A stretch of 38,733 nt of DNA from the NCBI GenBank assembly GCA_027618565.1, contig JAQCEQ010000025.1, positions 1 to 38,733 on the forward strand. Direction: 5' to 3'. The notes beneath the pieces were generated by a model that saw nothing but the letters and a program-made list of their open reading frames with translations, was not told where the DNA came from and ran no database searches. Made by a program: the position numbers and the translations under genes. How positions within the stretch are numbered: position 1 is the stretch's first letter; each line of letters begins with the position of its first letter. Of the stretch, positions 3,518-20,439 are shown one piece after another. The DNA comes from Planctomycetota bacterium. Its GTDB lineage: Bacteria; Planctomycetota; Phycisphaerae; Phycisphaerales; SM1A02.

Positions 3518-4621
3518 TCACTTCGGATCAACGAGCAGATAGACCAGAATCGAGTCCTCGATCGCTTGTCCCTGCGGGTTGGCCAGCTTCATCGTGAGCG
3601 GGAACACATGGAGCCCCGGTCGCGCCGCCTCGGCTGCAGCCAGAGTCAGTTCCACGACCACGCCGTCGCCGTCGCCCACCTGGTTGGCAATCCCGACGGC
3701 GATCTCGGGGTCGCTGCTGGACACCGAGATGGCTCGCGATGTCCCCGCGCGCTTGATGTGGATGTCGGCGGGCGCCGTGGTTCCCGCGACCATCGCGCCG
3801 GCGTTGATGCGATACTCGGCCCAGGGGATCTTGGCCTGGATCTTGGTGCACTCGTGGCGAACGCGCATGTCCAGGAGCCTGCAGTCGGGGCGGTCCGTCT
3901 CAACGGTGAGGAATCGCGGCACCAACTCGCAGGTGGCGTCGCTGAAGTCGTAAGCGATGTCGTAGGCAGCGCGTGGGGTCTCCGTGGCGGGGTCAAACCC
4001 CACAAACACCGGGGGCTTCCCAAGCACGGCGGTCACCGTGAACGGCTTCCTGTCCAGGCTCTCCGCGTGAATCGTGCCCTTCGTCCGCGTGGGGTCCGTA
4101 TGCGCGTCGATGAACGGATTGGTTTGATTCCCCTTGTCCACGCTGGTGAGTCGAATCGGGAACGCGACCTCGCCCCCCATGTTGAGGACCGAGACGATGT
4201 CCAGGCCCTCGAACACGACGTTGACCTGGGCCGTCTTGCGACCGGGCGCCGCGGGGACCTTCATCTTGACCGGGACATCCAGCGTGCCGTGCGCCGGGAT
4301 CACCTTCCCCCTGATGTCAAGCGTCGTGCAGGTGCAGCTGGGCGCCGCCGCGCGGACGGTGATGGGTTGGTCCGTCGTGTTTGCGAGGGTGAAGTTTCCG
4401 GTCACGATGGCCCGAGGGGTCATGTATCCCAAGTCCAGGTTGGCGGGAGCGACCAAAATGGGGGATCGCGTCACGGCCTGCTGGGAGCCGGACTGGGACG
4501 CGGACGGAGGTGCCGGCGGGGCAGGGGCCTGGCCAGTGGCGATTGGAGCGCTTGCGACGATGGTCATCGCGATGGCGAGCGGGGCGATTGTCGCTCGCAG
4601 ACAGTCAGGCGGGAAGCGCAT
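3518..4621 (-). CDS. Secreted DUF1573-like (Ig-like/ASH-type) protein, paralog A
   Basis: A 367-aa exported protein of unknown function. Residues 1-30 form a signal peptide ending near IATG-QAP, and a Pro/Ser/Gln-rich linker follows. Residues 60-160 resemble DUF1573: LDLGYMTPRAIVTGNFTLAN, then ITVRAAAPSCTCTTL with the hallmark SCxCT at 95-99, then VIPAHGTLDVPV. A second region carries PFTVTAVLGKPPVFVGFDPA (193-212) and LDMRVRHECT. The same blocks in the same order occur in the protein at 19384-20439, so the two are paralogs. The frame stays open upstream to 5515, but that part is the shadow of the divergent oxidoreductase gene. ATG 4621 starts a proper signal peptide, only 25 bp from the divergent start at 4647. 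DUF1573 proteins are common in Bacteroidetes and Planctomycetes and lack a known biochemical role. Confidence 0.85.
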   Translation of the reverse strand: MRFPPDCLRATIAPLAIAMTIVASAPIATGQAPAPPAPPSASQSGSQQAVTRSPILVAPANLDLGYMTPRAIVTGNFTLANTTDQPITVRAAAPSCTCTTLDIRGKVIPAHGTLDVPVKMKVPAAPGRKTAQVNVVFEGLDIVSVLNMGGEVAFPIRLTSVDKGNQTNPFIDAHTDPTRTKGTIHAESLDRKPFTVTAVLGKPPVFVGFDPATETPRAAYDIAYDFSDATCELVPRFLTVETDRPDCRLLDMRVRHECTKIQAKIPWAEYRINAGAMVAGTTAPADIHIKRAGTSRAISVSSSDPEIAVGIANQVGDGDGVVVELTLAAAEAARPGLHVFPLTMKLANPQGQAIEDSILVYLLVDPK

Positions 4622-4627
4622 CCGGGC

Positions 4628-4635
4628 ATTATGCT
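4628..4635. promoter_or_regulatory. Overlapping divergent -10-like boxes (junction 4621/4647)
   Basis: The 25-bp gap between two divergent ATGs holds ATTATGCT. Read on plus, TATGCT (4630-4635) lies 11 nt before ATG 4647. Read on minus, CATAAT (complement of 4628-4633) lies 6 nt before ATG 4621. Neither start has a Shine-Dalgarno sequence. The layout fits two leaderless promoters that share their -10 bases. Confidence 0.5.
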
Positions 4636-4646
4636 CGCTTCCCGCC

Positions 4647-5678
4647 ATGAGGTCACTGGTCATCACAGAAAAGGGTTCCCCCGTCGCTGACCGCGTCCGG
4701 CTGATCGACGACGCTCCCACCCCGGCGCCCGCCGCTGGAGAACTCCTCATCCGCACGGAGGCCAGCGCACTCAACCACTTGGACCTCTGGGTCGGGAGGG
4801 GGCTGCCAGGGATCGACACGAAGTATCCCTTTGCCAGTGGCTCGGATGGCTGCGGGGTGGTGGAGACCGTCGGGGCAGGGGTCGACGCCGCGTGGGTGGG
4901 CCAGCGCGTGCTCATGAACGCCGCGGTCAGGGCCAACCAGTGCCGGCAGCCGGACTCGTCACCGGCAGGCGAGGACATCAGCATGATTGGCGAACATGTC
5001 GAGGGCGCCAACCGCGAATTCTTTACGGCTCCCGTCAGCAATGTGCTGGCCATCGGCAACGCCGATCCGATCCAAGCGGTCGCAGTTGGGCTCACCCACC
5101 TCACCGCCTGGCGCATGTTGACCACGCGAGCGCAGGTTCGCTCCGGGGAAATCGTGCTTGTCACCGGCATCGGCGGTGGAGTAGCGCTCGCGGCGCTCGC
5201 GCTTGCCAAGCACCTTGGCTGCCGGGTCATCGTGACCAGCCGCTCCCAGGAGAAATTGGATCGAGCCGCCGCGCTGGGAGCGGACGCCGGACTCCTGGAC
5301 ACGGGGGCCGATTGGTCCAAGGCGGTCCGTGGCCTCACCAACCGGCGCGGCGTGGATGTGATCATTGAAAGCATCGGCGCCGCGGTCCACGGTTCTTGTC
5401 TCAAGTCGTTGGCACGCGCCGGTCGCCTGGTGACCTGCGGGTGCACCACCGGGGCGGCCCCCCCAACGGACCTGGCGCGCGTGTTCTGGAACCAACTCTC
5501 GATCCTTGGATCCACGATGGGGTCGATGGAAGAATTCGCTGAAGTGGTGGCTCTGTGGAGCCGAGGAAGGGTATGCCCAGTTGTTGATTCGGTGCACCGG
5601 CCCGCCGACGGCGCTTGTGCATTTTCCAGACTTGAGTCCGGTAACCAGTTCGGGAAAGTGGTGATCGACTGGCGGTAA
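4647..5678 (+). CDS. MDR-family oxidoreductase (zinc-type alcohol dehydrogenase-like / quinone reductase-like)
   Basis: A 343-aa medium-chain dehydrogenase/reductase, a soluble NAD(P)H-linked oxidoreductase whose substrate I cannot tell. It has an N-terminal GroES-like domain (ALNHLDLWVGRGLPG, then SGSDGCGVVETVGAGVDAAW at about 64-83). The Rossmann domain carries LVTGIGGGVALAALALAKHL (171-190) in place of the classical GxGxxG, followed by VIVTSRSQEKLDRAAALGAD. The C-terminal blocks FWNQLSILGSTMGSMEEF and RLESGNQFGKVVI are typical of the Zn_ADH_like subgroup of this superfamily. The usual GHE zinc motif and the four-Cys structural zinc lobe are absent, so a zinc-free reductase is more likely than an alcohol dehydrogenase. 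ATG 4647 lies 25 bp from the divergent DUF1573-like gene; no Shine-Dalgarno sequence is present. Confidence 0.88.
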   Translation: MRSLVITEKGSPVADRVRLIDDAPTPAPAAGELLIRTEASALNHLDLWVGRGLPGIDTKYPFASGSDGCGVVETVGAGVDAAWVGQRVLMNAAVRANQCRQPDSSPAGEDISMIGEHVEGANREFFTAPVSNVLAIGNADPIQAVAVGLTHLTAWRMLTTRAQVRSGEIVLVTGIGGGVALAALALAKHLGCRVIVTSRSQEKLDRAAALGADAGLLDTGADWSKAVRGLTNRRGVDVIIESIGAAVHGSCLKSLARAGRLVTCGCTTGAAPPTDLARVFWNQLSILGSTMGSMEEFAEVVALWSRGRVCPVVDSVHRPADGACAFSRLESGNQFGKVVIDWR

Positions 5679-18562: not shown

Positions 18563-19360
18563 TCAGGGGCGCTCGCTGGGAACGGCGGGCGCCCCTTTCT
18601 CTTGCGCTGCCAGCGCCGCATCCGCGGCTCGTCGCTTGGCGGCAGCCCGCAGGTTGAGGCCCTCCACCAGGCCGCTGAAGGCCATGGCGAAGTAGAGGTA
18701 GCCCTTGGGGACATGGAAGCCGAATCCGTCGGCAACCAGCATCATGCCGATGAGCAGGAGAAACGAGAGCGCCAGCATCTTCACCGATGGGTACGTCAAT
18801 ACGAAGTTGCTCACCGGCTCCGCAAAGACCAGCATGACCACCATGCTGGTGACGATGGCAGCCACCATGATGATGACCTTGTCCGGATCCACCATGCCCA
18901 CCGCGGTGACCACGGAGTCGATGCTGAAGACCATGTCCATCAGCATGATCTGCGCGATCACCACCGTCATGGTGGCGCGCTTCGTGGCGGACTGCGCCCG
19001 ATGGCCGTCATCGCCCATCACATGACCGATTTCCATGGTGGACTTCCATAGGAGCACCAGGCCGCCGACGACGAGCACCACGTCGCGCCATGAGACGGCG
19101 ATGTCGCGCTCCATCACCTGCGCTGTGAAGAACGGTTCTGTCAGCCCCGCCAGCCAGCTGAGGGCCAGGAGCAGCCCGAGCCGCATGACCATTGCGCCGA
19201 CCAGCCCCAGTCGTCGCGCCCCCTTCTGTTGTTCCGCGGGAAGCCTGCCCGAACTGATCGCGATGAAGACCAGGTTGTCGATGCCAAGCACCACCTCCAG
19301 CACCGTGAGGGTGAGGAATGCTGCAAGCGTGTCAAAGGTCAGGAGCGCCGAGAAATCCAT
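18563..19360 (-). CDS. TerC-family integral membrane protein
   Basis: A 265-aa protein with about seven membrane helices. The two inverted repeats of the family are seen: TVLEVVLGIDNLVFIAISSG near residue 20, and LMDMVFSIDSVVTAVGMV near 140, each with an Asp in a helix that is thought to bind metal. Bacterial TerC-family proteins have been linked to manganese efflux and metallation of exported proteins, and to tellurite resistance in plasmid clusters; no other ter genes are nearby, so the metal role is favoured. The C-terminus is Ala/Arg-rich. ATG 19360 lies 23 bp from the divergent DUF1573-like gene. YoaE/YgdQ-like members of the same superfamily are an alternative name. Confidence 0.9.
   Translation of the reverse strand: MDFSALLTFDTLAAFLTLTVLEVVLGIDNLVFIAISSGRLPAEQQKGARRLGLVGAMVMRLGLLLALSWLAGLTEPFFTAQVMERDIAVSWRDVVLVVGGLVLLWKSTMEIGHVMGDDGHRAQSATKRATMTVVIAQIMLMDMVFSIDSVVTAVGMVDPDKVIIMVAAIVTSMVVMLVFAEPVSNFVLTYPSVKMLALSFLLLIGMMLVADGFGFHVPKGYLYFAMAFSGLVEGLNLRAAAKRRAADAALAAQEKGAPAVPSERP
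18566..18600. terminator. Terminator between convergent sugar dehydrogenase and terC genes
   Basis: GGGGCGC (18566-18572) pairs with GCGCCCC (18589-18595), followed by TTTCTCTT on the plus strand. It overlaps the last codons of the terC-family gene, so it serves mainly the plus-strand gene. Confidence 0.7.
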
Positions 19361-19369
19361 GAGGGCGCG

Positions 19370-19376
19370 TACACTA
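19370..19376. promoter_or_regulatory. Overlapping divergent -10-like boxes (junction 19360/19384)
   Basis: The 23-bp gap between divergent ATGs holds TACACTA. On plus, TACACT (19370-19375) ends 8 nt before ATG 19384. On minus, TAGTGT (complement of 19371-19376) ends 10 nt before ATG 19360. No Shine-Dalgarno sequence on either side. The arrangement repeats that at 4628-4635, also next to a DUF1573-like gene. Confidence 0.5.
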
Positions 19377-19383
19377 GCCGCAG

Positions 19384-20439
19384 ATGAAGGACGAAGCAGG
19401 ATGTTGGCGGATGGGATGGTGGTTGCGATCGGCTCGTGCGCTGCTGGTCGCCACGGTTGCCGCCACGCTGGGAGCGGCGGCTCTCCAACAGGTGACGCTC
19501 CTCAACGGCACCAAGGACTTTGGACGCGTCCGGCCGGGGAGCACGCACACCGCCCAGTTCGCACTTCACAACGCCGGCACCGCGCCCGTGACGGTCCGCG
19601 CAGCCGTCCCCTCCTGCAAGTGCACGGATGTCGGTCTGGTGGCCGGCACCGTGATTCCGGCTGGCGGGTCGATCCCGTTCAGCGCCACGCTGGCCGTGCC
19701 GACCACCCCGGGCGAAAAGGACGCCAAGATCCAGATCGTCTTGGACGACGGCAGCGCGCCGCTCGTGGCGCAGATGAAGGCTGTTGCCAGCCTGCCGGTG
19801 GAGGCAACCCCCGCGTTCGTGGACGCGCTCAAGGGAAAGTCAACGGGGATCGTCACGCTCCGCAGTGAGGACGGGAAGCCATTCCGCGTGCTCTCTGCAG
19901 ACGGCAGGCCACCGGTGTGTGTCGGCTTTGACCCCGCCAAGGACCAGCCGCGCGCGGAGTACACGCTTCAGTGGGAGTTCAGTGCGCCCGCCTCCGGCGA
20001 TCCGAGGCTGTGGTGGATCGTGGCGACGGATCGAGAAGATGCGCCGCTCGTCGCGCTGCGTGTGCGGCACGAACTCACCGGGAGCAAGGCCGATGCGGCG
20101 CGATTCGACCGCCACTGGTGGGCACCCGAACAGTTGGTGCTGGCGAACCGGGTGAAGGCCGGCGCGCCGGTGACGCTCACGCTGGACCTGGAACACTACA
20201 ACCCGAGTGCGCGTGGCGCGGTGCAGCGACCCGAGTGGAGCGCCGTCCAGTCCGTCAGGTCGATGACCCCATTCGCGTCGGCGGCGCTGGTTTCAAACGC
20301 TCCCGCGGGTGACCACTCGTCAGTCACCTTTTCCTTTACTCCCGCTACCGGCACCAAGGGGTTCCTGTTCGCCCCCGTGGAGATCACGACGCCGACCGGT
20401 TCGGGCGTGGTCCCGGTCGTTGCGCTGGTCACAGATTGA
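19384..20439 (+). CDS. Exported DUF1573-like (Ig-like/ASH-type) protein, paralog B
   Basis: A 351-aa paralog of the protein at 3518-4621. A hydrophobic export segment lies at about 18-36 (RALLVATVAATLGAAAL). The DUF1573-like region follows: KDFGRVRPGSTHTAQFALHN, then TVRAAVPSCKCTDVG with SCxCT at 77-81, then VIPAGGSIPFSATL. The second shared block is GKPFRVLSADGRPPVCVGFD (164-183), followed by ALRVRHELTGS. The C-terminal third has a proline/threonine-rich beta-type sequence. Function is unknown. It is the first gene of a four-gene run: its TGA overlaps the TTG of the metallophosphoesterase (TTGA), then tsaB and a pseudo-receiver gene follow. A TACACT box lies 8 nt before the ATG. Confidence 0.85.
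   Translation: MKDEAGCWRMGWWLRSARALLVATVAATLGAAALQQVTLLNGTKDFGRVRPGSTHTAQFALHNAGTAPVTVRAAVPSCKCTDVGLVAGTVIPAGGSIPFSATLAVPTTPGEKDAKIQIVLDDGSAPLVAQMKAVASLPVEATPAFVDALKGKSTGIVTLRSEDGKPFRVLSADGRPPVCVGFDPAKDQPRAEYTLQWEFSAPASGDPRLWWIVATDREDAPLVALRVRHELTGSKADAARFDRHWWAPEQLVLANRVKAGAPVTLTLDLEHYNPSARGAVQRPEWSAVQSVRSMTPFASAALVSNAPAGDHSSVTFSFTPATGTKGFLFAPVEITTPTGSGVVPVVALVTD

Follow-up and report, generated by a model that had tools for sequence, protein, structure and literature searches.

The 25-bp spacer between the divergent genes for a DUF1573-domain protein and an oxidoreductase (a zinc-type dehydrogenase) is probably a compact bidirectional promoter, from which, as predicted from the DNA sequence, the DUF1573 mRNA would be made leaderless and the oxidoreductase mRNA near-leaderless. 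The gene pair lies in the window, which is the whole stretch of 38,733 nucleotides that was analysed, and the genome it comes from (G000) consists of 2.26 Mb across 62 contigs. Promoters placed directly next to start codons look like a general habit of this planctomycete genome as judged from its sequence, with the window junction as one case of it.

Two overlapping -10 boxes in a 25-bp spacer

The minus-strand ATG of the DUF1573 gene (4621-4619) and the plus-strand ATG of the oxidoreductase gene (4647-4649) are divergent, and the sequence confirmed that they are 25 bp apart (4622-4646), as the original prediction had it. The identities it proposed for both genes were supported by protein domain matches (Table 1). 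The core ATTATGCT (4628-4635) lies within the spacer and contains a -10 hexamer for each direction, CATAAT on the minus strand and TATGCT on the plus strand, at the distances from the two ATGs that had been predicted. The boxes had also been described as symmetric and overlapping. They do overlap, by 4 bp, but they are not strictly symmetric, as TATGCT is not the mirror of CATAAT, for which the plus-strand mirror would be CATTAT. The bases at 4627-4633 read CATTATG, so the fully symmetric TANNNTA form is absent from the spacer, and the resemblance between the two boxes is a pseudo-symmetry given by an odd palindrome.

Table 1. Positions of the features at the DUF1573/oxidoreductase junction and at a second divergent pair in the window.
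Feature	Position	Strand	Details
DUF1573-domain protein gene	3518..4621	-	PF07610, E 1.4e-10; by eye, the N-terminus resembles a signal peptide
Perfect inverted repeat with 11-bp arms flanking the boxes	4608-4618 / 4636-4646		17-nt gap; absent in G001, not part of what is conserved
Block with 48/49 bases identical in G001	4618..4666		DUF1573 start codon, spacer and first oxidoreductase codons
25-bp spacer, both -10 elements inside	4622..4646		24/25 bases shared with G001
Odd palindrome GCAT-T-ATGC, GCATTATGC	4626..4634		Gives the boxes pseudo-symmetry; read from the sequence
Alternative -10 box CATTAT (mirror of CATAAT)	4627..4632	+	14 nt to ATG; 4/6 match; putative
-10 box CATAAT for DUF1573	4628..4633	-	6 nt to ATG; predicted RNA start = A of ATG (4621)
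-10 box TATGCT (TAnnnT) for oxidoreductase	4630..4635	+	11 nt to ATG; predicted RNA start ~4642, 5-nt leader
Zinc-type dehydrogenase (oxidoreductase) gene	4647..5678	+	PF00107, PF08240, PF13602
-35-like GTGACC, in oxidoreductase codons 2-4	4651..4656	-	17 bp from CATAAT; consensus match only
TerC gene / DUF1573 paralog spacer	19361..19383		23 bp; box TACACTA at 19370-19376

If transcription begins 7 nt beyond each box, the predicted starts are 21 bp apart if TATGCT is used and 18 bp apart if CATTAT is used, in which case the oxidoreductase start would move to ~4639 and the leader would be 8 nt. Both transcripts had been expected to start on the start codon or right beside it. This holds for the predicted DUF1573 mRNA, which would be leaderless, while the oxidoreductase mRNA is better called near-leaderless than leaderless because a leader of 5-8 nt is predicted for it. 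Counted from the other end of the boxes, the first T of TATGCT is 17 bp upstream of the oxidoreductase start codon, and the first base of CATAAT is 12 bp upstream of the DUF1573 start codon, with a C replacing the T of TAnnnT.

No other good -10 candidate was found near the junction. In the 250 bp upstream of each gene, TANNNT occurred once on the plus strand (4630) and was absent from the minus strand, hexamers matching TATAAT at 5/6 positions or more occurred once on the minus strand (4633) and were absent from the plus strand, and a consensus scan of 4200-5200 returned a single sigma-70-like site, GTGACC-17-CATAAT on the minus strand. Boxes in both directions, defined for this purpose as TAnnnT or at least 5/6 of TATAAT at 6-11 nt from the end of a 25-mer, were present in 0.17% of 200,000 random 25-mers with the dinucleotide frequencies of the genome. 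Both genes could still have ordinary leaders made from promoters within the opposite genes, with the spacer boxes being there by chance, as some promoter types are missed by consensus scans. This is very unlikely, since neither side has a further TANNNT or 5/6 TATAAT match within 250 bp, the boxes are strongly conserved in a second genome of the genus (G001), and the layout recurs across genera.

For the bidirectional promoter, it is proposed that RNA polymerase, probably carrying the housekeeping sigma factor, would melt the AT-rich patch GCATTATGC, which serves both directions, facing either way. Leftward transcription would use CATAAT, perhaps aided by the TGAC -35 core within the oxidoreductase gene, and would start at or ~1 base from the A of the DUF1573 ATG, resulting in a leaderless mRNA. 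The TGAC match on the minus strand can be taken only as a hint, because 60 promoters sampled from the genome have no -35 consensus. Rightward transcription from TATGCT or CATTAT would start ~5-8 nt before the oxidoreductase ATG, and therefore a Shine-Dalgarno site would have no room on this mRNA. Ribosomes would load on the 5'-terminal or near-terminal AUG, as can be expected from published work on leaderless mRNAs. Because only one polymerase would fit at a time, the DUF1573 and oxidoreductase genes should compete for it, and any shared control of the two genes may perhaps be a mere by-product of the layout.

Conservation of the junction in the genus and the family

Three genomes of the genus were compared (G000, G001 and G002). 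There was no oxidoreductase match in G002, and G001 is the only other genome of the three with the DUF1573/oxidoreductase pair. Conservation of the ATTATGCT core had been proposed as a check, and when it was run the core and 24/25 bases of the spacer were the same in G001, as were 48/49 bases of the block at 4618-4666, against 69/156 (44%) of the four-fold degenerate sites in the oxidoreductase gene. The probability of the spacer identity on this four-fold-site background is P ~5e-8, which is a guide only because two genomes are compared. Within the oxidoreductase coding sequence, 1/1004 windows of 25 nt was equally similar, and past the conserved block the DUF1573 N-terminus was near random (3-6/20 identical bases in four ungapped 20-nt windows).

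A perfect 11-bp inverted repeat is centred on the promoter, and its perfect arms and 17-nt gap could suggest that it is the operator of a dimeric regulator and the main functional element of the junction. However, G001 keeps the -10 core but has an unrelated sequence in place of the left arm. An operator is therefore a highly improbable explanation, and the repeat was rejected as the key feature. No RNA hairpin would be expected from it, as each predicted RNA holds one arm. The repeat may have become perfect recently, through template-switch correction of imperfect arms, or it may be there by chance.

To see the junction in a wider group, the oxidoreductase was searched in 151 genomes of the family and matched in 147. 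From these, 130 upstream regions (30 loci and 100 more) were analysed, and the remaining 17 were set aside because they were partial or weak, ranked low or did not appear in the list. Among named loci that encode relatives of the oxidoreductase (80/138 kept), the labels included Phycisphaerales, Phycisphaerae, Planctomycetota, Planctomycetia and uncultured bacterium. G069, in which the codon aligned with the start is ATC, was taken out before offsets were counted, leaving 129 starts. The end of a TAnnnT box was 6-11 nt from the oxidoreductase start in 84/129, 12-17 nt in 10 and 0-5 nt in none, while the 6-nt bins between 18 and 47 nt held 0-3 each. When one genome per genus was taken, the box was at 6-11 nt in 27/39, and sixteen further loci outside the 129 set had it at 6-8 nt in 13 cases. 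The window's own oxidoreductase box, at 11 nt, is off the 6-8 nt mode of its relatives.

A box at 6-11 nt was found at 61/71 oxidoreductase starts with a divergent DUF1573 gene vs 23/58 without one. A same-strand frame of at least 250 codons ended near the start in 32/35 cases with no box at 6-17 nt vs 17/94 with a box, so the oxidoreductase starts that lack a box belong mostly to genes with an operon-internal look. In G036, G063, G078, G100 and others, the oxidoreductase gene follows a long same-strand frame and has no TAnnnT at 6-17 nt; by eye, these long frames have similar ends with RTRDLL-like residues.

On the DUF1573 side, a DUF1573 protein was encoded upstream of the oxidoreductase in 72/130 regions and divergently from it in 71. 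An in-frame DUF1573 start with TAnnnT at 6-11 nt was present in 43/71 genomes, and at 6-10 nt the box preceded 47/255 in-frame start candidates vs 3/223 out-of-frame controls. G000 and G001 are outside the 43 and belong to the 28/71 genomes that have no TAnnnT at 6-11 nt on this side, because CATAAT is not a TAnnnT box. Boxes on both sides were found in 39/71 genomes from 8 genera, and this count, like the others from the relatives, is not made of independent cases because the genomes are related. The spacer was 21-27 bp in 20 of these genomes, which come from five genera other than that of the window, and 54 bp or longer in 19, so a shared box is not the sole layout. Overlapping boxes were seen in all 20 genomes with a short spacer; the overlap is 5 bp in 16 (as in CTAGTGTAC and TTACTATAG) and 2 bp in 4. 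The start geometry is fixed in 16/20 of the short-spacer genomes, as the open frame examined there holds no ATG, GTG or TTG ahead of the DUF1573 start.

These short-spacer genomes also bear on the choice of the DUF1573 start codon in the window. Reading upstream from 4621, no stop codon interrupts the DUF1573 frame across the spacer in G000 or G001, and overlapping coding could therefore explain part of the spacer conservation. For the same reason, the start codon at 4621 rests on the relatives and on the signal peptide judged by eye. Another reading is that only the oxidoreductase promoter is real, while DUF1573 starts inside the oxidoreductase gene (4648/4663) and has its promoter at another site, the block being kept because it encodes two proteins. 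Alternative starts do exist 9 and 14 codons upstream, the gene finder called the start at 4663, the conserved block roughly coincides with the upstream extension of DUF1573, and CATAAT departs from TAnnnT. However, the signal-peptide-like N-terminus suits the start at 4621, the alternative start is absent in the 16/20 short-spacer relatives with the layout unchanged, and apart from CATAAT there is no 5/6 TATAAT match and no TANNNT for DUF1573 within 250 bp. This reading is improbable, and a promoter working in both directions from the spacer is preferred.

Probable start-adjacent promoters elsewhere in the genome

The junction had been treated as a special case, but a start-adjacent promoter looks ordinary in this genome. 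A sample of 368 kb out of 2.26 Mb (the window and 20 other stretches) was taken, in which a simple gene finder called 261 genes. Because its choices of start codon are crude, as with DUF1573, the count was also made over every in-frame candidate start and over out-of-frame controls. TAnnnT at 6-11 nt was found for 37/108 genes with a divergent upstream neighbour (other 6-nt bins 1-5), for 9/71 with a distant co-directional neighbour (other bins 1-4) and for 8/71 with a close co-directional neighbour (other bins 0-2), and the out-of-frame ATG/GTG controls were flat for the TAnnnT offset. Shine-Dalgarno-like matches of at least 5 nt preceded 3/60 of the TAnnnT genes vs 38/201 of the others. Over the 60 own-genome TAnnnT promoters, TTGACA at 16-18 bp spacing showed no excess over offset controls.

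In genome G077, the counts for TAnnnT at 6-11 nt were 12/42 with a divergent, 11/41 with a distant co-directional and 8/61 with a close neighbour, and in G010 there was a weak excess (5/48, 8/67 and 3/26, respectively). E. coli K-12 was used as a control (50 kb, annotated starts) and the box was not raised at 6-11 nt there, with 2/43 genes and 2-7 in the other bins.

Loss of the anti-Shine-Dalgarno sequence was considered and rejected. The 16S tail CACCTCCTTT keeps it in 13/13 full-length relatives, while the 16S of the genome itself ends at model position 1387, and Shine-Dalgarno initiation may still take place, because the tails of the relatives keep the anti-Shine-Dalgarno. It was also observed that the stretch directly after the start-adjacent box is C-rich (C 41-61% in six positions; L141-L160 and the window).

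A second divergent pair in the window, in which a TerC gene (PF03741) starts at 19360 on the minus strand and a DUF1573 paralog (PF07610) at 19384 on the plus strand, each with ATG, has the fully symmetric TANNNTA form that is absent from the first spacer. Its box TACACTA is 8 nt from the plus-strand ATG and 10 nt from the minus-strand ATG. Both genes are kept in G001, where the core is GCGTACACTAGC and CAT and ATG are 23 bp apart as counted on its sequence. For the DUF1573 paralog, a later ATG at 19411 would, by eye, also suit a signal peptide.

Strictly symmetric sites between two ATGs numbered 1 in 368 kb of the own genome (Markov mean 0.25), 3 distinct ones in 198 kb of G077 (4 pattern hits; 1 in the swapped-codon control) and 0 in 200 kb of G010. 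In the own genome, the counts thus do not support a common class of strictly symmetric two-way boxes. The form in which the boxes share two bases was not found between two ATGs in the samples of the own genome, G077 and G010 (Markov means 0.75, 0.33 and 0.58). Two further divergent pairs were seen in the own genome, at L148 9923/9948 (25 bp) and L149 5546/5573 (27 bp). Each has one GTG start, and in each the two TAnnnT boxes have a TA step in common.

Known systems and what the junction means

The junction belongs to known kinds of promoter, because both of its ingredients and close precedents have been published. In the bacterial bidirectional promoters described by Warman, Grainger and colleagues, the -10 boxes overlap and the RNA starts are separated by 7-25 bp (PMC10268837), and the optimum spacing is 18 bp, with 10 and 23 bp also seen (PMC12825309, PMC10268837). 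The commonest form is the fully symmetric TANNNTA with starts 18 bp apart, although it is not required (PMC12825309, PMC10268837), and the optimal distance from -10 box to RNA start is given as 7 bp (PMC12825309). The junction is similar in that its -10 elements overlap on opposite strands and its predicted starts, 18 or 21 bp apart, are within the 7-25 range. It differs in that the start codons are at or near the predicted RNA starts, and in that it is known from sequence and conservation and not from mapped RNA.

The second ingredient is the TA-led leaderless gene, common in Actinobacteria and Deinococcus-Thermus, with TANNNT ~10-12 bp before the start (Zheng 2011, PMC3160421). Genes of this kind are recognised by a TANNNT signal no more than 20 bp ahead of the start codon, with clustering near 12 bp. 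Leaderless genes have also been described as having a TANNNT -10 box with no conserved -35 motif, and closely juxtaposed divergent promoters have been reported as common (Cortes 2013, PMC3898074). Our genome resembles these in using TAnnnT beyond chance (37/108 against 1-5 in other bins), in having few Shine-Dalgarno sites and in having no conserved -35. Unlike them, its host is a planctomycete, and the string 'Planctomycet' does not occur in the main text of PMC3160421.

Two published divergent pairs come close to the junction. In M. tuberculosis, prpD and Rv1129c are divergent neighbours with both leaderless mRNAs mapped (PMC3898074), and they resemble the junction, whose two mRNAs are predicted to have no leader or a very short one. 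In the csoR-cueA divergon of Bradyrhizobium, the -10 elements overlap as they do here and one mRNA is leaderless by 5' RACE. Unlike at the junction, the second csoR-cueA mRNA has a 42-nt leader and the promoter carries a repressor box (PMC5057107). For planctomycetes, leaderless and/or S1-type signals have been inferred from one genome (PMC5397173). In a literature search that covered few subscription papers, none of the matches listed was a map of RNA starts in planctomycetes or described such divergent pairs in them. Within the literature searched, the habit of start-adjacent promoters therefore seems undescribed for the planctomycete lineage.

A wider proposal, which we regard as evenly balanced between right and wrong, is that this planctomycete family is rich in leaderless mRNAs and has recurrent 'micro-divergons'. 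In these, the starts would be 21-27 bp apart around one shared -10 patch, both mRNAs would have no leader or next to none, and the first codons of one gene would contain some of the promoter of the other, kept there by selection while synonymous sites around it saturate. The junction offers a natural test of the minimum length of a control region for two divergent genes, and also of whether ribosomes load on two divergent start-adjacent mRNAs made by competing polymerases. For the annotation of planctomycete genomes, our results suggest using a -10-box model (TAnnnT at 6-11 nt before the start) besides Shine-Dalgarno models when start codons are assigned.
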